64,000 nt of DNA from Polytrichum commune (lineage: Eukaryota; Streptophyta; Polytrichopsida; Polytrichales; Polytrichaceae): NCBI GenBank assembly GCA_950295325.1, contig OX485807.1, positions 33,822,440 through 33,886,439 of the forward strand, written 5' to 3'. The position numbers and the translations under genes were made by a program. Each line of letters opens with the position of its first letter. Position 1 is the stretch's first letter. Below the pieces are notes generated by a model that worked only from the letters and a program-made list of their open reading frames with translations, did no database searches and had not been told where the DNA came from. This document shows, piece after piece, positions 6,971 to 60,708 of this stretch.

Positions 6971-9900
6971 ATGGAGCAACCTGAAGTAGAGCATTTGAGC
7001 TCCGAGGAGGTCAGTTACTGCCCCACTTTGCAATGTGATGTAACTTCATATTGTGGTATCTGACATGAGTACGGGCAAACATACTTACCTGATAATACGA
7101 TGCAGGGATCTTCACTATCTGAAGCGGTGTTCACGGAAGATGACACTGATGCTGGCATAGAGGATATTGATGTAGACTGCAGCGGGCTGAGAAGGGAGGA
7201 ATGGCTGCATAGTCCTGTGATGCTTGTAAATGTGAGTAGACAAAATGTGGCAAAAGGAATCTGTTGCAACGTCAATCCGATGGATTGTGTGGAAGACAAA
7301 TGTCTAGGAATAGACAATGTTGGTGTGCTTATTATGGAGCCATTAGAGGGAATGATGGACATGGGATGGATGTTCTCCTTGCGAATATGGCCTCTTGATC
7401 GGGTTTTCCAACAGAGGTATACACTTGCACACCACCTCCTAGTGAGCACACGCAGGTTGCGTGTGCAAAACACGTTGCTAGAAAGACGGAAGAAAGAGGG
7501 GAAGAGGGCATATGTAACATCACGCACGACGCCGCAGAACAGACCGACAAAGAAATCACAGATTCTCAATAATAATAGCATCCACCAACTATCTGCTAGC
7601 GTGTGTTGTGATAGGGAGTGCACTAGATATTTTCCTAGGGAAGAGGCACTTGCGCTACGAACGGAGTTCTACACTTGTTCGCCACGGATGAGACATGCTA
7701 AGCAACTTGAAGTCCATGGCCAATTACATGTATTACCTGTAAGTTCAACGAAGGTCGTCACCTTGAGTGGGCGCAATGTCTGCGAAAAGGCATGGAGACA
7801 CATATTTGCCGTCTCGAAAACGACGTTCTACAGAAACCGGTCAGAATTCAAGAATGGTATGCGTTCACGCGATCATGGGAACCTAAATAAGTAAAGGAAT
7901 CGAACATCCACCCAGCAAGCTACAGCCACACTTCCGACACTACTGAAAGACAAAACAGATATGATGCCTCACAAGGCTCGCACATTGCCAAATGGTACAC
8001 GAGTTGTAGAAATGGTCTTGCCTCGCGGAACCAAATGGAAGAAGTGCTTGGTTACAATCAATGAGGTACGCAATTGGTATAGTCCAATTACCCGCATTGA
8101 CAGTGGAGATCAAACATTCAATCGAGTTGGATTTGTGTATAATGAATAGACACGAGGGGGCAATTATGAATGTATTTCATACACTTTGGTTCATAGTTCA
8201 TGTGAAGTATTATTAATATTATACTAATACTATATGGGCAGGTGAATGACAAATGCGGAGTGCTCCCAATATCTATTTCAACTCTGAGCAAAATTCGAAA
8301 TACCTACTTTAAGCACTACATAAAGAAGAGGGTTGGTGATAATTTTGCGCGTTGTGGGAAGTGTGATTCGTTGTCCGCAATTATACTTCAACATGTGAAA
8401 GGTTCAGCCGCACACACAGGGTTTTCGAAACAATTGGAAAAACACCTAGCACAACAAGAATCGGCTCGCAACGCTTACCGATGCATGAGGGCTCTTTCAA
8501 TTGAGCATCCCCAAAAGGTGTTGACGATTATCCACGACAAAATGGACCATGGCAAAATCGCATCGCCTTGCTTTGCTTCCAAGAACAAAGACACCGATAT
8601 GTTTACAAAGCTACCACTTTCTGTAACAGGCATGATGGCCCATGGACATGGAGATGAGAGATATGCCCACTATGCACTGGACATGTACCCTGGAGATTGC
8701 AACCATACTGTGGGCTCATTCGCGAGACTTTTACGCGATTTGGAGGAACCTCCCATATCATCATCCCAGCGTCTTTTTCATGGTTCCGGGCGTGCACCTC
8801 TGTATTGTGTTGTTCTCAATGGGAGCGATGTATGTTTGGGAGGATACATGTATGTTTGCGACCCCCACCCACGGAGCCCACACCTGCAGTTCCTCTTCCA
8901 CCCATTCTGCATGTTCAGCTTGATAATTGTTGGAAGGACAACAAGTGTAGGTTTGTAAAGGCATTTTGGTCTATGCTCACGGCGAAAGCAATATTCACGG
9001 AGGTACATGTATCTTATCTATTGGTTGGCCACACCCATGATGACATCGATGCATCATTTGGAAGGTAGAGTATGGACCTGCGTGAACACGACTATCCCAC
9101 TATACCCCTTCTTATGAAATCATACATGGACATGGAAAAGGTTACTGTCATTCCACACATGATAGAGGAACTTCCAGATTGGAGAACATTCGTCAGCGAG
9201 CATATCCCAAGTGGTAAGGAGAAACTCATTGGGCACACCAAGGCTCAACAGTTCAAATTCTATGTCCGAGATGATGGTTGGCCAGTTATGCAATACAAAG
9301 TGCTAAGCACGCATGGAGAGTGGTTGCCCAAAGGCGGTGTGAAGATGTGGAAATCAAATATAAAAGGGGAGCCATGTATTCCATCCGGGGACCCCTTTCC
9401 TGCACCACCGCGAGGTATGGCCAAGCTGGAGGAGGTTCTTGTGGGATTGCAAGGGTTCATTGACTATTGGCAATCAATATGTGACCATGACACGACAGGA
9501 GCATATATGGGTTCACACATGCATATTTTGCAATATTGGATAGGGGTGAAGGAGACATTAGATGCACCCCTCAAAAACGTATACACTGTTGGGCTGCCAT
9601 TATGCGAGGGATTCTGGCCACGAAGTAGAATCGAAGCAGATGCACATCCCTTCTTGCAGAACGGAGAGCTTCGGGAAGAGCACCAACCGGACGACCATTA
9701 TGTTGGTCCAGCAAACCTTCGTCCTGCAGCAGCTTTCCGCATCGCAGAGAATGTGCACGAGGGGCATATGCTAATATTGCGTCCCCAAGAACAAGATATA
9801 GGTAGACCCATTTGGGTATGTCGGGCTGTGTCTGTACCGAACTTGGCGGTCACGGGAGATCATCCACGTCAAATACTTGTACAGTGGTTCACTCCCACTT

Positions 9901-10235
9901 CAACCGCGAGGGACCTTTCAAAGAAATGGAATGGTTGGGACTCAAACCCAAATTTCAAATGGAAACGAGATTTGAAATACTCCGTTTCCGACTGGCAGCC
10001 GATCGATTGCATTTTGGCAGCCTGGCCTCTGCCAGCACAGGAAGATGTGGAGCCATTAAAGGTTACTATCCCAGCAGAGCAAATTGGTTTTGCCAAAGAT
10101 AATCTTCGACGGTGTTCAACAGCCGAGCGTGGGAACAGGGAGGGTGGGTGGGACGACGGGGAGTCTAGTGGGCATCGAGGGGGCCGTGGACATGGAGGTG
10201 GTAGACGTAAATCTGGGGGACGCGCATCCTGGTGA
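6971..10235 (+). pseudogene. Transposon-type DUF7869-like protein, three exons, inactivated
   Basis: I assemble exons 6971-7009, 7106-8065 and 8242-10235. The introns are GT..AG and both junctions are phase 0. Together they give about 998 codons. The N-terminal half has a Cys-rich segment followed by FPREEALALRTEFY and KTTFYRNR. The second half has the CxxC motif RCGKC, then HDKMDH, QLDNCWKDN and VGHTHDDIDASFGR. From memory these acidic motifs mark a transposon-associated family (DUF7869-like) with a likely RNase-H-type DDE core. The C-terminus is GR-rich (RGGRGHGGGRR). Three lesions are visible. A TAA at 7892-7894 lies inside continuous same-frame homology. A one-base deletion falls near 8850-8865, and restoring it returns exon 3 to a multiple of three. 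A TAG at 9066-9068 sits where the family has Trp (GRWSM), a G-to-A change. It is therefore a dead copy. The family name rests on motif memory, not a search. Confidence 0.75.
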
Positions 10236-17625: not shown

Positions 17626-19341
17626 ATGGCGGAGCTTTTACAATTGGTTTTTGAGCAACTATCAAGAGTTTGGGGTTGCATTGTCACTTGCTTTATGATG
17701 TTCTGGACATATCGGCAACGAGGAACCATTTACAAATATGACATTGGAGGTGTATTGCAATGGCAGAAGGAAGAAATAAGTAGGCTTGAAGAGATTTCAA
17801 ATGGGAATGAAGTATTGAATAAGAAGCAATGTAAACATCTTCTCACCAAGCTTAACCAAGTCGTAGAATGTGTTGGTAAGATGATCACATTGAGTAGTGA
17901 GGTCCAAGAGTTCGGTGTTGCACTTGAGGAGCTATGTTGCATTACACAAAAATTGGGAGTTGTGATCAGTGAATGCGGAAATCTAAATCGGAGTCAAGCA
18001 ATTGCATTCCAAATAAATAACAAGGAGGCTTTCCGAGAAGTTGTGTCCGATTTGAGGTGTTTTTGGGATGTGATTTGTGAGATGCATTCAACAAGCCATC
18101 CAGGGTCGCATTTTGACATGTTTATCATTGATATAGACATGCCCACCTTGAAAGAAATTGAGGATGACGAAAAAGTTCTTCAAGAAAATCTTAAAGATGG
18201 TAGCAACTATGAATGGAACGAACATTTACGGCAAAGATTGGGGGATTTGCAACTAGAAGGCGGAGAACTCGATGGTGTGGAGGTTCCAACTGTTATCAAT
18301 TCATTGAAACCAAAACTTCTTAAACAAGTTGGGAAAGGATCATATGGTGTTGTGTTTGAATCAATATGGTTGGGATTTAAATGTGCAACAAAGATTTTGC
18401 CAGCTCCATATGGAATTGAAAATCTCCGCAAAGAGGTTGGTATTTTGGCAGGCTTGAGCCATCCAAATCTCATCAAATTCATTTATTGTGGAGTTGGTTG
18501 GAGCATAGACGAGTTATGTTCTTGGACTCTCAAAGTTTTACGGAAATGCAAAGGAGGAAATGGCAAAACTTTTGACAATTTGTATTTAGTGATGGAGTTC
18601 ATGGACATGAGCTTGAGTGGCATGTTGAAGAAGCAACCTAAACCATTACCATATCTTCTTGCAATTGATATCATGCATCAAGTTGCAAGTGGTGTGTGTT
18701 ATCTTCATGACATGCATGTTGCCCATCTTGATTTGAAGCCGGACAATGTGCTCATGAAACCCAATTCCATTACATGAGGAAAATTGAAATCTAGGCGATA
18801 TTTGGTCAAGTTGGTTGATTATGGTACTTCCAACATTGAGGTTCCAAGCAAAGTTTCCAAGAACCAAACTTGCCATCGTGTTGGTACACCTAAGTATATG
18901 GCACCGGAGATTATTCAACAAAACCTTGAATCTCATGCAAGTCTATTTCAAGCTGATGTATGGTCCTTTGCTATGACATGTTCAGAGATCTTGTCACAAA
19001 TTGCTCCATTTGGGAGCAATTTCGTGCAAACCAAAGACATTTTGAAAAAAATAAAGGAATTTGAGAGGCCAGAGTTGCCAATGAATTGTGAAGAGCTTAC
19101 GAGGTTGATTGAGGAATGTTGGGTAGAGGATCCTTCACAAAGGCCGACATTTTTTGAAATTTGTCAGAAATTGATCAATTTGAAGAAAATGTTCTTGAGA
19201 GGAACATATTCGGCAAACCTACGTCCCAAGTTTGAAAAGGATGGAGCCTCACTCCAAAAGAAGTCAAGAATCGAGAAGGCAAAGGAGGTCAAGGAGAATC
19301 ATGTTATAAAGGTATGAACCATTTTGGTGTTAAAATACCTA

Positions 19342-19380
19342 AGCAACTATATATATATATGTATGTATGTATGTATGTAG
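19342..19380. repeat. (TA)n(TATG)n microsatellite in intron 1
   Basis: The first intron of the NLR gene contains a run of TA followed by about six TATG/GTAT units. Confidence 0.9.
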
Positions 19381-21089
19381 CTTGCCACTTTTATTGATTA
19401 GATTAAATATAGGTCTTTGAGGGCGTAATTTTGAATGAGAATTATGTACTTATTGCATGCGTTGTTTATGTAGGTGAATGAAGCAACAATGCAAGTAAAC
19501 AACATGGCAGTTGGTGTTGAACGAAACCTTACAAAAGTAAAAAATCGCCTCAAGGAAGTGAGGATTTTGGGTGTCATTGGCATGGGTGGAATTGGGAAAA
19601 CTACATTGGCAAATGTCATATTTCATGAATTGAAATCCACATACAATGCATCATATTTTGCCAAGGACTTGAAGAATGAAAGTGATTCACTTGGAATTCT
19701 ATGTGACATGTTAACAAACTTTGGAAAAGATCCTAAAAACTTGCCAACAAATTTAGTGGATGCACAAAACATGTTGAAGCAATTTATGGTTGGTAAGAAG
19801 GTTCTCATAATATTGGATGATATAAAGCATCGAGATCAAATAGATAATCTTCTCCATCCGGATATTTTGAGGGACAACGTAGGCGTCACATTGATTATAA
19901 CAACCCGCCATTGGGATAAGATTAAAGATCTCGTCGGGGAGAATGGCAAAATAGAGGTTGACACATTGGATGAAAATGCAGCAAAACATTTTTTATCCTT
20001 CATTCATGTGGGCCCAGAGGTTCTTTACCAATTGAATTTCATGATATAGGAGGAAGAATTGTGGAAGCTTGCAATGGCTTGCCTTTAAGCCTAGGAGTAT
20101 TGGGTGCATTTTTGCGGGATAAAAGGAGGTTGCGAAGTTGGGAGCGAGCATTACGAAGAATGAAAAGGGGAAGATGTTTGGATGGTAACAAAGAATCTGA
20201 AGACACAAAGCTTTGGAGCACATTGAGGATAAGCTTCGATGGATTGGAACTGGTTGAAAAAAATATGTTTTTGGACATAGCGTGCTTCTTTTGCAAGGAC
20301 GTGTGGCCTGAAGGCATGTCAATAGGTAGAGCCTTGTACGTATGGACCATGAATGATATTCTCCCGATGAGATCATTCAATATATTGATAGAGCGGTCAT
20401 TGGTAAATGTTGACATATATGGAAACATAGAGATGCACGACCAACTTCGTGACATGGGACGAATGATCGTGCAAAAGGATGAAGAATACTTGGGCACTCG
20501 AGTTTGGGGTGTTGACTTCATTCCATCGACTCAATCTACAAGCAAGGTGTGAATTGTAATGAACGACTTGTATGACAAAGTTTGTTCCGTGTTGTCTTTG
20601 TAAAGTCTATATAAACAAAATGTGTAATTAGATTTGGATTATATTGGGCCATTAGTTTCATGTTTATAACGGACAAGATATTTAAAATCAATTCAGATCC
20701 TTGTATAGTCTTTGCAATGATTCATTTTATTCCATCTTTTTGCAAAATAATATATGATTCTATTGATACTCTATTTGTTTTTTGATATAATTTTTACATC
20801 TTGCTAAGCAGGGCACCAAGAAAGTTGAAGGTATAATGTACAAAAGATCGCGGTGCCATTTACAAGGTTGGAATTTTTGTTTAGACTTAGATCTACGCAA
20901 TCTTCGCCTACTGATAATTCATGATCATACCAACAATAATTCAACCGACTTCCAACTATTTAAAGTTCCTCTTTCACACGATCAAGAATATTTATGTCAA
21001 TTGCAAGCCATAATTATAAATGGTAACTTTCAACAGTTACCAAACAATTTGTGGAAAATGCATTCATTGAAAAGCTTAGATATCAAAGG

Positions 21090-24010
21090 ATTGAACATGC
21101 TCAAAACATTGCATGAGGGACTTGGAAACCTCACTTCATTGACGGCCCTTAATTTGTCGCAATGTTGGAGATTGACAACATTACCAGAGGGACTTGGAAA
21201 CCTCACTTCTTTGACAAACCTTATATTTGAGGGATGTTCAAACTTGACAACATTACCCGAAGGACTTGGAAACCTTATTTCTTTGACGACGCTTAAATTG
21301 GGGAGTTGTTCAATCTTGACAACATTACCAGAGGGACTTGAAAACCTCACTTCTTTGACGGAACTTAATTTGACGAGATGTTCAAGATTGACAACATTAT
21401 CCGAGGGACTTGGAAACCTCACTTCTTTGACAAACCTTACATTGGAGGGATGTTCAAGCTTGACAACATTACCTAAGGGACTTGGAAACCTCACTTCTTT
21501 GACAAACCTTAGATTGATGGGATGTTCAAGCTTGACAACATTACCCAAGGGACTTGGAAACCTCACTTCTTTGACACAATTTTCTTTGTGGTATTGTTCA
21601 AGCTTGACAACATTACCTGAGGGACTTGGAAACCTCACTTTATTGACGGCCCTTTATTTGTCGAAATGTAGGAGATTGACAACATTACCCGAGGGACTTG
21701 GAAACCTCACTTCTTTGACGATGCTTAACTTGTGGGGTTGTTCAAGCTTGACAACATTACCAGAGGGACTTGGAAACCTCACTTCTTTGACAAACCTTAT
21801 ATTGGAGGGATGTTCAAACTTGACAACATTACCCGAAGGACTTGGAAACCTTATTTCTTTGACGACGCTTAAATTGGGGAGTTGTTCAATTTTGACAACA
21901 TTACCAGAGGGACTTGGAAACCTCACTTCTTTGACAATGCTTAAATTGGAGAGTTGTTCAAGCTTGACAACATTACCAGAGGGACTTGGAAACCTCACAT
22001 CTTTGACAAACCTTACATTGGAGGGATGTTCAAGCTTGACAACATTACCTAAGGGACTTGGAAACCTCACTTCTTTGACAAACCTTAGATTGATGGGATG
22101 TTCAAGCTTGACAACATTACCCAAGGGACTTGGAAACCTCACTTCTTTGATCAACCTTACATTGGGGGGTTGTTCAAGCTTGACAACATTACCTGAGGGA
22201 CTTGGAAACCTCACTTCTTTGACGATGCTTAACTTTTGGGGTTGTTCAAGCTTGACAACATTACCCGAGGGACTTGGAAACCTCACTTCTTTGACAAACC
22301 TTATATTGGAGGGATGTTCAGACTTGACAACGTTACCAGAGGGACTTGGAAACCTCACTTCTTTGACATAACTTAATTTGACCAGATGTTCAAGATTGAC
22401 AACATTACCCGAGGGACTTGGGAACCTGACTTCTTTGACAAACCTTAGATTGATGGGATGTTCAAGCTTGACAACATTACCCGAGGGACTTGGAAACCTC
22501 ACTTCTTTGACAAACCTTACATTGGAGGGATGTTCAAGCTTGACAACATTACCCGAGGGACTTGAAAACCTCTCTTCTTCGAGGACGCTTAAACTGGGGG
22601 TTTGTTCAAGCTTGACAACATTACCAGAGGGACTTGAAAACCTCACTTCTTTGACAAACCTTATATTGGAGGGATGTTCAAACATAACAACATTACCCAA
22701 GGGGTTTGGAAACCTCACTTCTTTGACAGAGTTTAAGTTGTAGAGTTGTTCAAGCTTGACAACATTACATGAGGGACTTGGAAACCTCACTTCTTTGAGG
22801 ACGCTTAAATTGGAGGGTTGTTCAAGCTTGACAACATTACCAAAGGGACTTGGAAACCTCAGTTCTCTGATGGATTTTTATTTGTGAAGATACTCAAGCT
22901 TGACAACATTTCCCAAGGGACTTGGAAACCTCATTTCTTTGACATAACTTAAATTGGGGGGTTGTTCAAGCTTGACAACATTACCCGAGAGACTTGGAAA
23001 CATCACTTCTTTGACAACCCTTACATTGGAGGGATGTTCAAACATGACAACATTACCCGAGGGACTTGGAAACCTCACTTCTTTGACAAACCTTAATATG
23101 GGGGGTTGTTCAAGCTTGACAACATTACCCGAGGGACTTGAAAACGTCACTTCTTTGACGAAGCTTAATTTGAGGTGATATTCAAGCTTGACAACATTAG
23201 CAGAGGGACTTGGAAACCTCACCTCTTTGACGAAGCTTAATATGGGGGTTGTTGAAGCTTGCCAACATTAGCCAAGGGACTTGGAACCCTCACTTCTTTC
23301 ATAGAGCTTTATTCGTGGTCTTGTTCTAGTTTGCGAACATTAGCCAAGGGACTTGGAAACCTCACTTCTTTGACGAAGCTTAATTTGCACGATTGTCTAA
23401 ACTTGACAACACTACCCAAGGGACTTGGAAACCTTACTTCTTTGATGGAGCTTTATTTGTCGACATGCTCAAGCTTGAAAACATTACCAGAGGGACTTGG
23501 AAACCTAACTTCTTTGGCAGAGCTTAAATTGGAGGGATGGTCAAGCTTGACAACATTAGTAGAGGGACTTGGAAACCTCACTTCTTTGACGAAGCTTAAT
23601 TTGGAGGGTTGTTCAAGCTTGACAACATTACCCGAGGGACTTGGAAACCTCACTTCTTTGACGAAGCTTAATTTGGAGGGTTGTTCAAGCTTGACAACAT
23701 TACCCGAGGGACTTGGAAACCTCGTTTTTCTTGACAAACCTTACATTGGAGGGATGTTCAAGCTTGACAACATTACTTGAGGGATTTGAAAACTTCACTT
23801 CTTTGACGCCGCTTAAATTGGGGGGTTGTTCAAGCTTGACAACAATACCATAGGGACTTGGAAACCTCACTTCTTTGACGAAGCTTAATTTGGAGAATTG
23901 TTCAAGCTTGACAACATTACCCGAGGGACTTGGAAACCTCACATCTTTGACAAACCTTACATTGGAGGGATGTTCAAGCTTGGCCACATTACCCGAGGGA
24001 CTTCGAATCC
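21090..24010 (+). repeat. 72-bp LRR-encoding tandem array, about 40 units
   Basis: Each 72-nt unit encodes one 24-residue LRR with the core LTTLPEGLGNLTSLT and a variable (L)xLxxCSS segment. Units are almost identical at the DNA level (GGACTTGGAAACCTCACTTC recurs throughout), which implies recent expansion. There is a higher order too: the variant unit with AACCTTATTTCTTTGACGAC recurs at 21271 and 21847 (576 bp, 8 units), and the unit with GACGATGCTTAACTT recurs at 21717 and 22221 (504 bp, 7 units), which indicates unequal exchange of multi-unit blocks. The first 18 or so units are open. Stops and frameshifts appear only after 22369. Long minus-strand frames (for example 21654-22790) are shadows of the repeat. 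Confidence 0.95.
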
Positions 24011-24111
24011 TCATTTCTTCTTACATTTCTTCTTTCATAGTTCCAATTTTGTGGAATGCAAAAGTGCAAATGATTCATACTCCATATGCTAGAAGTTTGT
24101 TATTTTCTTAA

Positions 24112-25404: not shown

Positions 25405-25421
25405 GGGGGGGGGGGGGGGGG
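25405..25421. repeat. 17-base G homopolymer
   Basis: An uninterrupted G run. Similar runs occur at 51675-51690 and, as C, at 10676-10691. Confidence 0.95.
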
Positions 25422-53565: not shown

Positions 53566-55291
53566 AGGGGGTCAACCTAGGGGGGTGATCCACTACATAG
53601 TTCTCCCCTCATCATGACCTAAACATATAATATTGAGCAGTTGCCTAGTGAACTGCCCCCGCGATATGCGGGCGCTTTGATTCCAGCGTTGGCGGCGGCG
53701 TCCGTATAAACGCCCACTTCCGTAAATACCACACATACAATACCATATACACCCTAAAATCTACGCAATACATACATACAAACCGTATATAGACAGCCGC
53801 GGGCGGGCGGGCGGCTGGGTCACGCGATTCTTCGCGGCAGTTTCCTCTCCGTCGTCTCGGATGCTCTTCAACAATGTCCCCTCTAAAGCGTTTCCTACGA
53901 TCTCCAACTGAAAACCCGCCGCGTGCAGTAGCTTATTCCTTGTTCCATTGCATCACGAGGCCTCGAAACAAATCATCTTCCACGTCACTCCAGGGCGGCG
54001 GTGGATTGAGCGGGGGGGGAGGGGGAGTCGCTTAAGTTACGAAACTCGCAGGAATCAAGCCGAGTTGTGTTATTCGGGCTTTTGGTAGCTAGTAGCTGAT
54101 CATCGTTTCGTTGGGATAAGTTAAGTAGGTGGACGGAATCGCTGTGGGAGGTATTGAAGAAAGGTGTGGTTTTTTGTTTTTTTTGTTTTTTTTTTGGTTT
54201 GGTGTGGGTGGTTGGGTGTTGCTAAAAGCTAGGATGCTGTCTCGTCAGCGTTGAATGGGTCATGGTGGTCCTACTTTGCTTATTAGATTCCTCCTACTTT
54301 GAGTCATGTAGTGATGATATTGTTGTTTTAGTGACTCAGTGGCCCGCCTCCATTCGCAATTTCGTGTTGGGAGAAGCGGAAAGTTCGCTTCTGTCGGGAT
54401 TTGAGATTGCTCGAGCAGGTTAGTGAGCGAAACTCATCATATCGGTCTTCTGTGTTGCTTAGGATTTGCTTTAGCTCGGTATTGAGGTGCAGAAAGAAAG
54501 AGAGAGAAAGAGAGTGAGAGAGAGCAATTAGGTAGTTCAGTGTTGGTGTTGTTGTGAGGAGGAGCGCTGGCGATTCGGTGAGCAGTAGGTGGCAGGGTGA
54601 ATTTGAATATTTGGATGGCTTTTGGTAAAAGCTGAGGGATTGGTGTATCGAGGAGTAAGAGTAAGGTATGCCTCACGTAGCATTTTGAAACTTGGTAGGC
54701 TCCTCAAGTGTCTCGTTGCGTGTACCAAGCGGAGGTTAGGTTGTCTTTCTGTAGCTTCCGGCGTTTTCAGCCGAGGTACGTAACGTAAGAACATCATGAT
54801 CCGGTGTAGTTAGTTGTCTGACTGGTTGGTGTAACTCTCGTCGGTTGCGTCTGTAATCCATTAGTGATTGAAGATCGACTCTTCCATCGAGGTTTCGTCC
54901 TGGAGATTGAAAGGTTTCAGCTCTTTTTTTGAAGCTTTCTTCGCGAGCAGGACAATACTGCTTTTTCTGCAATACATAACGCGAGAGCATCCTTCCGTTG
55001 TGGTTAGCTGGGTAGTTGTTGTCGTCCTTCTTTTTGTCGGTTGCTTTTTGAATTCCAGTAGGGATTGAACATAAACCCCGAGGTTTGCTCCTTGGAATTA
55101 CAAGAGTTCAGGTGATTGTCGGGAGTATTTGTTGTTTTGTTTTCTTCGCAAGCAGAATATCGGGTTGGCCTTCTCCTTGTCGTTTGGGTCAGTAGGGTTC
55201 GAACAAAGCCTCCACTTGGGGGGTTTCGAGGCTCTGGGATTTTATAAGGGCTCAGGTGTTGCTTTTGGAGGAATTGGTGTTTGTGCGCTCG
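53566..55291 (+). promoter_or_regulatory. Promoter and long leader of the membrane-protein gene
   Basis: GC content rises here. TATATAG at 53786-53792, followed by GC-rich sequence, is a candidate TATA box. A (GA)n tract near 54488-54525 is typical of plant 5' leaders. Several GT/AG pairs suggest a leader intron, but I could not fix one. No alternative coding sequence is convincing. Confidence 0.4.
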
Positions 55292-56893
55292 ATGATGATG
55301 GCGTTTCAAGTGGTAGCGGATCTTGTGGGACTGGTATGGCGTCACCCCATGGTATCATGCCTGGTGCTTGTGCTCTTCACCCCGCCCTTCTTCCCGCTGA
55401 TCAAGTACTTCTCCCCTCTCCTAATCTCCACCGGCCTCTTCATCCTGCTACTCGTCACCATGGGCCCAGGCAAGTCACTCTCCTCATCCTCTTCCACAAC
55501 CCCTCTTGGTGAAGGCGAGGAGTTTGAGCTTCGGAGAGTCACAACCCCGAAGGTGTGGAAGGACGACCAGTCGCTGTACACAGAAGAAGAGGAGGTGGAT
55601 GAGAACGGAGGACGAACGTTCAAGAGACGGAAGGCAGACGGATGGATGGACTGGGTTAAGGAGATTGAAGAGTCCGGGTTAGCTTGGGTGGAGAAGAAGC
55701 TCAAGAATGAGAATTGGAAAGGGAGTACTCTCAACGATGAGAATGTGTCCATCTTACAGGAAGCCTTCTCCGAGAAAACTCACCCTGTCTCTACCATCCC
55801 GGAGACAAAACCTAGCACTCATCAAGAAGCATCGACATCATCATCATCATCGCTCCAGGCGCAAGAAAGCCTTGCTAAGGAGGTCATTCTACCATTTTCT
55901 GAAGCACTGGACCTGCTAAACCCCCAGGGAGGAACAATTGGCGAAGCTGCACCTCCGAAGGAAGAAATTGAGTTCGGGGAAGGTGGTGAACAGCGGGATC
56001 AAGTGGCGCCAGTTTTGGTGACACCTCATCCTGTGAGGGTAACTGAATCTTCTTCGGACGGTGGTGGTGGTGGTGTGCATCACCTTGGAGTTGTTCCAAT
56101 TCAAATTCCCCTCAAGGCGGCTACCACGGGTGGTGGTGGAGCCGAACCGAGTCCAGATACGGAGCTGGATGATACGCCAAGTGAGCTTCGGAAGCGGATG
56201 ATGTCTGCTTCACTTGTGCGGAGAGACTCGATAAATGCAAACTCAGGGAAGTCGGTGAGCTCGGTGGAGTCAGATTTGGATAGCCCTGCTGCACAAGTGA
56301 AACTTTCCATGTCCGGGAAGCTGCACTTGATTGAGAATCTGGGTAATCTGATTGAAGAGCAGGAGCATGAGGTCCACGAACATGGGAAGAAGTCTCCCGT
56401 GCTTCAAGCCCTAAAGCCCACTGCTGCCGACGAACTGCAAGATGTGAAGGATAAGCTTGAGCATTTCCTTATTGAAGAGCATAAGGATGTTGCTGTTGTT
56501 GCAAGTCTCCCTGCTGCTGTTGTTCCTGTTGAGGAGAAGTCATTGCCAGAATTGGCTGGGAAGACATCAAGCTCGAAGCCTGGGTCACCTCTTTTTAAGG
56601 CAACTCCGGTTGCATCAGCAGCGGAGAAAAAGAAACTCAAGGTTAGGAATGAGTTTTCCTCTGATGACGAATCCTCGGGGGACGAACAATTCTCAGAGTC
56701 GGATAGTGATTCCGAGTTTGAGATTTTCCCTCCAGTGGAGCCTCCCAAGATGAAGCTGCATCCTCCTGTGAAGCTTGACATTCAACAAATTGAGAAGCGG
56801 CTGGGCACCCCGCTCCAGAAGAGTCCTACAACATCAAAAGCTCCTGGTGGATCAGGTGGAGGAGAAATCTCGGAAGTGCACCAGGGGCTATAA
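55292..56893 (+). CDS. Membrane-anchored acidic protein of unknown function, 533 aa
   Basis: I start at the first ATG of three in a row (ATGATGATGGCG, 55292). The frame opens earlier only with a GTG. Residues 1-60 hold two hydrophobic segments (about 19-36, VSCLVLVLFTPPFFPL, and 39-58, LLISTGLFILLLVTMG) separated by few residues, so the protein is probably a membrane hairpin. The rest is hydrophilic and probably disordered: a Ser run near 65, a conserved-looking basic/aromatic block (GGRTFKRRKADGWMDWVKEI), Gly/Pro/Ser-rich linkers, a Glu/His-rich helical stretch (LGNLIEEQEHEVHEHGKK) and an acidic tract near the end (SSDDESSGDEQFSESDSDSE). The 1.6-kb single-exon frame with even composition supports a real gene. 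I do not recognise the family. Land-plant putative transmembrane proteins of this layout exist. Confidence 0.8.
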   Translation: MMMAFQVVADLVGLVWRHPMVSCLVLVLFTPPFFPLIKYFSPLLISTGLFILLLVTMGPGKSLSSSSSTTPLGEGEEFELRRVTTPKVWKDDQSLYTEEEEVDENGGRTFKRRKADGWMDWVKEIEESGLAWVEKKLKNENWKGSTLNDENVSILQEAFSEKTHPVSTIPETKPSTHQEASTSSSSSLQAQESLAKEVILPFSEALDLLNPQGGTIGEAAPPKEEIEFGEGGEQRDQVAPVLVTPHPVRVTESSSDGGGGGVHHLGVVPIQIPLKAATTGGGGAEPSPDTELDDTPSELRKRMMSASLVRRDSINANSGKSVSSVESDLDSPAAQVKLSMSGKLHLIENLGNLIEEQEHEVHEHGKKSPVLQALKPTAADELQDVKDKLEHFLIEEHKDVAVVASLPAAVVPVEEKSLPELAGKTSSSKPGSPLFKATPVASAAEKKKLKVRNEFSSDDESSGDEQFSESDSDSEFEIFPPVEPPKMKLHPPVKLDIQQIEKRLGTPLQKSPTTSKAPGGSGGGEISEVHQGL

Positions 56894-59152: not shown

Positions 59153-59941
59153 TCAGGCAGCAATAAAAGGAATCACCATTAGCATGAAACTAGTATAGTC
59201 GAAAGTAGCACTACCGACCCGTAGTCGATCCTGATCCCGGAATTTCTCTGTCAAGCCTTTTACTATGAACCCACACTCCAGGAAGTTATCGAATTGAATG
59301 CTCCTGCTGCTGCCTGTCATGTCGTACTTGGAAACAAGCATTTGCAAGACGGCGTCTGGAATGGCAAAATTGAAGCTCAAAAGAGCAAGTCGCAACTCCT
59401 CCACTTCGATTGTTCTACTTCTATCCATATCAAACTGGTTGAATTTTACAGTCCACACCTTTATTTCTCTCCACAATTTTGCAAAACCTGCAGGACCGAT
59501 CCTTGTCGTGTCCCTCCCATCGGCATACAGGTGCAACATCAGGCGCAAAGTACGAGGAGAGAATCGGTTACCACATTGTAATAGCAACCTTCCTAGCTCA
59601 TTTGCATCAATCGTGCCATTCCCATCCGTGTCAGCTTGCTGGAAAACCTGAATAATTTCCGGTTCCGTGCCCGGAGGAAAGGATACACCAGCTTGATGTC
59701 GATAAGGGCTACCATAAGACGGTGGTGGATACGCCTGCTGCTCATTATAGCTTGGTTGCAGTTGCGGACCATAGCTACCATAGCCTCCATAGCCACCTTG
59801 TGATTGCTGGTTCCCATATGCTCCTGCTGTACTTGCCTGCCCGTAAGGTTGACTATAAGGTTGGCCATAGCCTTGTGGCCATACCTGCTGCCCTTGGTAA
59901 GGAGGAGCAGATGGCCCGCTTCCATACCTGTATGCCGCCAT
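59153..59941 (-). CDS. Penta-EF-hand (PEF) calcium-binding protein, 262 aa
   Basis: A single uninterrupted frame starts at ATG 59941. The longer frame upstream has no ATG. Residues 1-90 are Gly/Tyr/Pro/Gln-rich (QGGYGGYGSYGPQLQPSY), as in ALG-2, peflin and plant PEF proteins. Five EF hands follow. EF1 is canonical (D104-T-D-G-N-G-T-I-D-A-N-E115). EF2 (near 138-150) is degenerate. EF3 (D171-M-D-R-S-R-T..E182) is nearly canonical. EF4 (Y206-DMTGSSRSI) is partial. The C-terminal fifth hand (FDYTSFMLMVIPF) is the non-binding dimerisation hand. The stretch FIVKGLTEKFRDQD is characteristic of plant members. The role is calcium-dependent protein binding, probably cytosolic or membrane-peripheral. 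A likely leader-intron acceptor (TTTTCCTGTGCAG on the minus strand) lies near 60032-60044. Confidence 0.93.
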   Translation of the reverse strand: MAAYRYGSGPSAPPYQGQQVWPQGYGQPYSQPYGQASTAGAYGNQQSQGGYGGYGSYGPQLQPSYNEQQAYPPPSYGSPYRHQAGVSFPPGTEPEIIQVFQQADTDGNGTIDANELGRLLLQCGNRFSPRTLRLMLHLYADGRDTTRIGPAGFAKLWREIKVWTVKFNQFDMDRSRTIEVEELRLALLSFNFAIPDAVLQMLVSKYDMTGSSRSIQFDNFLECGFIVKGLTEKFRDQDRLRVGSATFDYTSFMLMVIPFIAA

Positions 59942-60708
59942 GCCTACAATCACCTCACGACCTAAAAACTGAACAGTACGCCCTGGACAAACACCCAACC
60001 TCCAATACTAACCCTTCCCCGTCTTTCAACATGCCTGCACAGGAAAATTAGTTTAGCATCACCAATTGCAACACAAACACCTCAAGGGGTGTTTACACAC
60101 AACCACTGTTCCGGGGGTTGATGGTAGTACTTTACTTCTTTGGTTCTGTTTTTGAGGGATAAGCTGGGATAGGGTGCATTGATGACAACCACAACTACAA
60201 CTACTCTACTTCGCCCAACTACAATAGAAGGTGTTGGAAATAGTTGCCATAACTGTAGTTCACTTTCTTTAATTCTAGTTGTTTGTAATTACTATTTGGC
60301 ACTGGGAGAGAACTTCAAGGCCAAAGCATGGAACTGGATTTGTAGGAGGCAAATTACTCTTAGACAATCTTTCCCCTAGAATCCATAGATTTTTTTCTCC
60401 ACTCCATGGATTGCACCAATAGGAGGGACGATCAATGAGGTCACATCCACTCTTCAACTGCAAGAAAGTTGTCTGCAAACAAGGAAAAACCATAGTTGTG
60501 GTTGAACAACCACAACCACTTGAGTTTGTGTATAAAGCCCCTTCACTCTTACTCAATCTAGACACCCCTCACAACCACAGATTTTTTTTCCAAAACCTAG
60601 CACCCGACACTCTGGTCAGCCTATATATAGAGTCAATTGCTTGCAAACTTCTGTATCACCAATTGGCCAGTTACACACTCTCTGCTCAACCTGCAAACCC
60701 TAACAAGG
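59942..60708 (-). promoter_or_regulatory. Leader and upstream region of the PEF gene
   Basis: It contains the probable leader-intron acceptor near 60032-60044, then AT-rich DNA. Plus-strand frames here are not protein-like. Confidence 0.4.

Follow-up and report, generated by a model that had tools for sequence, protein, structure and literature searches.

The 64,000-nucleotide stretch of Polytrichum commune DNA analysed here, which is called the window in its whole length (G000:C5:33822440-33886439, in a genome of 408 Mb), carries a locus of three forward-strand exons within 17626-24111. These exons encode a helical N-terminus with a protein kinase, an NB-ARC domain, and a leucine-rich repeat (LRR) array. 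We judge it reasonably probable that this locus belongs, as a recently broken copy, to the moss PK-NBS-LRR (PNL) class of nucleotide-binding LRR receptors (NLRs), whose members consist of a HeLo-like domain, a brace, a kinase, an NB-ARC joined to a winged helix, and a long LRR, and in which the HeLo-brace-kinase module is homologous to plant MLKL proteins. The locus itself is ordinary, a pseudogene of a known class, and the new part would be the HeLo-like identity of the N-terminus of that class, as suggested by sequence comparison.

Domain order and disruption of the window copy

The following features were assigned, all on the forward strand.

17626-19314 (+): exon 1, N-terminus and kinase
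17626..17730 (+): hydrophobic N-terminal segment of ~35 residues ahead of the helical domain (first-Met distance, Kyte-Doolittle)
17743..18096 (+): putative HeLo-like helical domain core, residues ~40-157 (profile comparisons of sister copies)
18148..18270 (+): candidate brace-like helices between HeLo and kinase, residues ~175-215 (sub-threshold 6lba alignment, weak model)
18319..19173 (+): protein kinase domain with HLDLKPDN and DYG, interrupted by TGA at 18775-18777 (Pfam)
19315..19473 (+): intron 1, phase 0 (ends GTATGA..TATGTAG)
19474..20549 (+): exon 2, NB-ARC and winged helix in two overlapping frames (Pfam; length 1076)
20550..20811 (+): intron 2, phase 0 (ends GTGTGA..CTAAGCAG)
20812..24111 (+): exon 3, LRR in which a 72-bp (24-residue) unit is present 40 times, containing early stops and shifts of frame (LRR_14, Tandem Repeats Finder)

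A preliminary description of this DNA had placed a kinase, an NB-ARC, and an LRR in this order and at these positions, and the profile search of the exons that it proposed matched Pkinase, NB-ARC, and LRR profiles. The Pfam scan placed Pkinase on the first half of exon 1 (E 3.2e-19) and on the second (2e-18), and PK_Tyr_Ser-Thr on the second half of the kinase (E 1.2e-18). The kinase motifs GKGSYG, the catalytic Lys, HLDLKPDN, DYG, and APE were seen. The NB-ARC match looked for within 19474-20546 was found in two pieces, at 19519-19998 (1.4e-17) and 20037-20240 (3.5e-8), with a winged helix at 20244-20477 (WHD_ROQ1, E 1.6e-10). The LRR exon matched LRR_14 (E 1.5e-50), and the array, first put at about 40 repeats, was measured by Tandem Repeats Finder at 40.3 copies of the 72-bp unit (21115-24019, 82% matches). 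Both introns between the domains are indeed of phase 0, with GT..AG ends and each after a complete codon. On the reverse strand, a 407-codon open frame lies antisense to the LRR array (21654-22877) and probably owes its existence to the 72-bp repeat.

The single continuous reading path that had been proposed across these domains does not hold. Exon 1 has one in-frame stop inside the kinase, the TGA at 18775. The frames of exon 2 (19474-20049 and 19974-20552) overlap, with a frame change between ~19974 and 20049. In the frame of its start, exon 3 contains 22 stops ahead of the final stop at 24109; the earliest lie at 22369 and 22741, and many of the later ones come after a frame change. The window copy is thus without a functional open frame and can give at most truncated products.

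The closest paralogues are L001, L002, and L003, which share 96.7-97.0% DNA identity with the window copy over 17626-21000 and group with it in the exon-1 tree (SH-aLRT 100). The intact paralogue sought in the same genome is L001, which is open at all three predicted exons (590, 376, and 1191 codons) and has 35 LPEGLGNL units. L002 has open frames of 605, 376, and 687 codons at the predicted exons, and L003 has a stop within the LRR frame. Because stops and frame changes have accumulated while the ~97% identical paralogues include the open L001, the window locus is a young, recently broken pseudogene whose family still has open members. The architecture is real, and it is carried by a broken copy.

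Membership in the moss PNL class

The kinase-NLR fusion is not new, since the moss PNL class, also called Pkn-NLR and known since 2012, has already been reported (PMC3352924, PMC11218826). In the available text of Xue et al. 2012, PK-NBS-LRR is the dominant NBS class of Physcomitrella, is reported as moss-specific, and has phase-0 introns at both domain boundaries as a feature of its own (PMC3352924). Chia et al. 2024 use the name Pkn-NLRs (PMC11218826). The window copy likewise has a kinase N-terminal to NB-ARC, a C-terminal LRR, and phase-0 introns at both boundaries, and it belongs to a large family. For a further trait of the class, an NB-ARC that sides with TNL/HNL and not with CNL, the observation that bears on it is the WHD_ROQ1 match. 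It differs from the published class in being broken, and also in that a HeLo-like domain appears to precede the kinase, whereas the N-terminus in the available portions of the published descriptions is a kinase only.

With the N-terminus alone as protein query, at least 154 matches were obtained in the genome at E <= 0.001, a lower bound in which 150 of 358 candidates were scored and some loci contribute more than one matching piece. NB-ARC motifs were present downstream of the HeLo-kinase, in the next or the same frame, at 25/25 PNL loci with enough DNA (L001-L019, L028-L032, L041), in a sample that is not random, many loci having been picked because NB-ARC was already listed there. L020, L033-L036, and L038-L040 were too short and were omitted. 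In L006, NB-ARC is spread over two frames.

Some relatives have a simpler gene structure. In the HRD-type L015, L017, and L041, the HeLo, the kinase, and the start of NB-ARC lie in one uninterrupted frame, unlike the intron-bearing copies. One-frame relatives were also among the matches of the N-terminal search (e.g., C6:37264863), with frames of 1583 to 3674 codons.

Evidence on a probable HeLo-like N-terminus

The ~220-residue N-terminus had been suggested as a possible separate signalling domain, and the sequence evidence bears this out and points to a HeLo-like one. Profile A1 was built from 15 N-termini without the kinase, with rows picked ahead of any HeLo search. Against 177635 PDB sequences, its best match was 6lba_A (E 0.0033), and the next was unrelated (0.62). 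The alignment to 6lba covers residues 21-127, and a faint colinear brace stretch follows at 6lba residues 186-228 (-1.8 bits, sub-threshold). A second profile, A2, was built from 18 more diverse N-terminal rows, five of them chosen via HeLo-family matches, and it gave a brace stretch at 6lba residues 185-228 (2.4 bits, sub-threshold). We take 6lba to be AtMLKL3 and 6ka4, met below, to be AtMLKL2; their database names are 'Protein kinase family protein' and 'F22L4.1 protein'. A phmmer search with L016 ranked 6lba 3rd of 2543 chains by E-value, with a 3.7-bit colinear stretch on the HeLo part; an EGFR chain, matched in two kinase stretches, and MAP3K9 ranked higher.

Single N-termini were also scanned against 24736 families. 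Among 18 of them, RPW8 matched 7 (best 7.8e-6), MLKL_N 5 (0.0045), DUF7792 5 (6.3e-4), and DUF1221 4 (6.7e-4); these counts are inflated because L028, L029, L030, L033, and L035 were picked via earlier HeLo-family listings. When ten of these 18 were rescanned, 6/10 matched at least one of RPW8, MLKL_N, and DUF1221, and 8/10 did so with DUF7792 included. The reversed sequences of the same ten gave 0/10 for all four families. The DUF7792 matches include the N-termini of L011, L029, and L040, and DUF7792 itself may be a HeLo-like bundle.

Several results weigh against a HeLo relationship. Residues 1-228 of the window copy matched no Pfam family on their own, and phmmer with the window N-terminus returned 0 matches in PDB. 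With A2, 6lba came second in PDB (0.022), a designed helical bundle scoring better (0.016). A single subgroup (L028-L030, L035) accounts for most of the RPW8 and MLKL_N matches, and the best scores of PNL N-termini stay below the curated cut-offs, at 17-20 bits vs 25 for DUF1221 and 26.0 bits vs 30.4 for RPW8. A direct comparison of the PNL N-terminus with three RPW8-type NLR N-termini of this genome was negative (5.1% vs 11.2% and 8.2% for reversed controls). With four-helix bundles, weak matches easily arise by chance.

The structural model is also an argument on that side. The single-sequence AlphaFold2 model of the window N-terminus is weak (pLDDT 51.8, pTM 0.43), and it is this weak model alone that places helices at residues 40-59, 66-92, 94-118, 122-131, and 133-157, with brace-region helices at 175-190 and 195-210. 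VIA-align placed it first with 4wnl, an RNA-binding protein complex (Z 11.6), then with She2p (Z 11.4 to 10.3), and the best 50 rows contained no MLKL or RPW8, only generic helical proteins. These scores are under the warning level for helical models and were treated as uninformative.

Taken over the family, the N-terminus appears to be related to the four-helix HeLo domain of necroptosis proteins, and the PNL HeLo-brace-kinase part is very probably homologous to plant MLKL proteins. The profile comparison holds for the family (A1, A3, and L021), with the window sequence alone matching 0 families. We lower the odds of HeLo homology somewhat because five rows of A2 and all four of A3, the profile described in the next section, were chosen through HeLo-family matches.

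Standalone HeLo-kinases in the same genome

DUF1221 is described as the HeLo domain of plant MLKL in the available passages of two papers (PMC8559963, PMC10951266). A DUF1221 search of the genome gave 16 matches at E <= 10, one of them above the curated cut-off. The matched places L021, L022, L024, and L037 are HeLo-kinase frames. L021 is the sole standalone copy to pass the cut-off (28.8 bits vs 25). An NB-ARC motif scan found none in the DNA of these four places, nor in the 3 kb past L021 and L037; for L022 and L024, the scan covered the DNA of the place itself.

Profile A3 was built from the N-termini of these four, all chosen for their DUF1221 match. Against PDB, it found 6lba first (0.023) and 6ka4 fourth (0.34). 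In hhalign, A3 reached 97.7% against A1 (E 1.5e-12) and 98.1% against A2 (E 1.4e-13) over 146 columns; for the controls, reversed or column-shuffled, the figure was at most 1.1%.

L022, L023, L024, and L037 form a cluster of HeLo-kinase genes at G000 C5:49.25-49.40 Mb, where the NB-ARC motif was not seen. L022 and L037 each have two HeLo-kinase frames in tandem, with HLDLKAEN in the upstream frame and, in the downstream frame of L022, HRDLN. These tandem frames are possibly tandem-kinase proteins.

The HLD motif and kinase catalysis

The replacement of HRD by HLD, reported from the sequence, is present in the window copy as HLDLKPDN. It is not peculiar to this gene, because HDMxVAHLDLKP occurs 103 times in the genome; HDMxVAHRDLKP occurs 138 times (motif counts in any gene), and the backward patterns 0 times.

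The exon-1 tree comprised 36 rows, namely 35 loci and the window copy; it is a quick tree with some long branches, and the motif columns were kept. All 18 HLD-type PNL rows form one clade (SH-aLRT 100). The 13 PNL rows outside it include 12 with HRD and 1 with HRH, and the five outgroup rows include 2 with HRD, 2 with HLD, and 1 with HSG. Two state changes suffice on the tree, with the HRH and HSG rows uncounted. The HRD relatives share the PNL architecture. Therefore, HLD is a trait of a clade and not of the window gene, and it arose once in the sampled PNLs, together with the change of DFG to DYG or DYD.

Within the 18 HLD rows, the Phe of DFG is Tyr in 18/18, the Gly is Asp in 5/18 and Cys in 1/18, and the Asp is Asn in 1/18. 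The catalytic Lys, the Glu, the Asp of HxD, and the Asn are kept in 18/18, including the window copy. The HLD-clade kinases are of the non-RD kind and may be active, and regulation without activation-loop phosphorylation, as for a non-RD kinase, is plausible. Altered catalytic motifs (DYC, DYD, NYG, HRH) were seen in otherwise open exons of L006, L008-L010, L011, L012, L014, and L031. Such substituted motifs hint that catalysis is dispensable in some copies.

The distance from the first Met, taken mechanically, to LNxxQC is 57-73 residues in 18/18 HLD PNL rows vs 23-37 in 13/13 others. N-terminal length by itself does not set the HLD clade apart, because long N-termini (52-74 residues) occur in four standalone HeLo-kinases too. 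The best 17-residue Kyte-Doolittle mean was 1.31 for the window copy, 0.79-1.97 for the HLD clade, and -0.08 to 1.28 for the other PNLs. Since the HLD and other PNL means overlap, a transmembrane reading was rejected, and the segment is described only as a hydrophobic extension.

Comparison with known systems

Plant MLKL and wheat Pm13 have a HeLo-like N-terminus, a brace, and a kinase in the identical order. MLKLs are HeLo-kinases without NB-ARC or LRR, whereas the window locus continues into both. Furthermore, the AtMLKLs are pseudokinases, whereas PNL kinases mostly keep the catalytic residues, as does Pm13 in the available account (PMC10951266).

RPW8/CC-R NLRs (ADR1, NRG1; CC, coiled-coil) have a HeLo-like four-helix N-terminus ahead of NB-ARC-LRR, and weak RPW8 matches were seen in 7/18 PNL N-termini. 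They differ in having no kinase, and the PNL matches were under the cut-off with a negative direct comparison. Wheat Tsn1, likened here by domain order, has a kinase ahead of an NLR; according to the accessible text of PMC11218826, monocot kinase-NLRs differ in falling within the CC/CC-R clade.

Proposed mechanism and alternatives

PNLs probably carry an MLKL-like HeLo-brace-kinase module, which would make each a receptor with a built-in executioner. We give roughly even chances to the following mechanism. The LRR would keep the NB-ARC in the ADP state until ligand binding causes the NB-ARC to oligomerise. The oligomer would gather HeLo-kinase modules, or release HeLo helices, at the membrane, where the helices would act on the membrane and cause cell death. 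The kinase would serve as the release switch or as a phosphorylator in cis or in trans.

Published assays bear on this in part. As far as the available text of PMC11218826 goes, N. benthamiana responded modestly and variably to the N-terminal kinase region of a P. patens Pkn-NLR, and with the exception of one mutant every kinase tested caused mild ion leakage. These constructs would include any HeLo part because they ran to the start of NB-ARC. Cell death is elicited by the AtMLKL HeLo and by CC-R domains, as stated in the available part of PMC10951266.

A doubtful but possible alternative is that the N-terminal helices serve solely to regulate the kinase and that signalling proceeds through phosphorylation of targets by the receptor, the view assumed in the literature. 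The catalytic residues kept in all HLD rows favour it, as does a review that, in the part available, terms kinase activity 'conceptually straightforward' (PMC10952240). However, the homology chain to DUF1221 and MLKL stands against it, and strict catalysis is not uniformly protected because the DFG Gly or Asp is substituted in some HLD rows.

It is unlikely that the kinase part serves as an integrated decoy, a bait for pathogen effectors, rather than as an output domain. The family is large and expanded, and kinases are described as common integrated domains in the available passages of PMC11218826 and PMC8559963, but the HeLo-kinase occupied the N-terminal output position at every PNL locus of the non-random sample of 25, and the P. 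patens kinase-region construct responded, if modestly, by itself.

That the window locus is a working gene, with stops that are assembly errors or are bypassed, is highly improbable: its domains are still recognisable and its exon-1 dN/dS (NG86, stop codon omitted) is 0.76 vs L001 and vs L003, with 0.60 for L001 vs L003, but it has the exon-1 stop, the exon-2 frame change, and many exon-3 stops, and yet L001 is open.

Other features in the window

Two forward-strand frames at 8206-10232 weakly match the ends of DUF7869 (E 1.9e-4 and 0.0066) and are possibly a broken mobile element. A 565-codon forward frame at 55196-56890 has no Pfam match at E 0.01. On the reverse strand, 59156-60007 is an EF-hand protein frame of 284 codons with a Gly/Pro/Tyr/Gln-rich front. 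A run of 17 G lies in intergenic DNA at ~25405-25421 (+).

Meaning for moss immune receptors

Two reviews, in the portions available, leave the signalling role of moss kinase-NLR N-termini open (PMC10586772, PMC10952240). No description of HeLo in moss kinase-NLRs was found in searches of the open-licence PMC literature, and the available excerpt of PMC5039405, on the origin of RPW8 in Physcomitrella, does not mention kinase-NLRs. NLRtracker assigns MLKL via DUF1221 (PF06760), according to the accessible part of PMC8559963. The plain-kinase label used in surveys could stem from that profile, with which the window copy is unmatched and its relatives score below the cut-off.

Plant MLKLs are described, in the available text of PMC9950082, as a family across seed plants, and the HeLo-kinases of this genome would extend the MLKL range beyond them. 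We see about as much reason to believe as to doubt the broader picture, in which the main moss NLR class combines sensor, kinase, and necroptosis-type executioner in one polypeptide, and the HeLo-kinase, older than the seed-plant MLKLs, occurs both free, as in the C5:49.25-49.40 Mb cluster, and NLR-bound, with one clade being non-RD with DYG or DYD and a hydrophobic N-terminal segment. If this is true, moss kinase-NLRs would join CC, RPW8, MLKL, and fungal HeLo killers, and MLKL-type executioners would predate seed plants.

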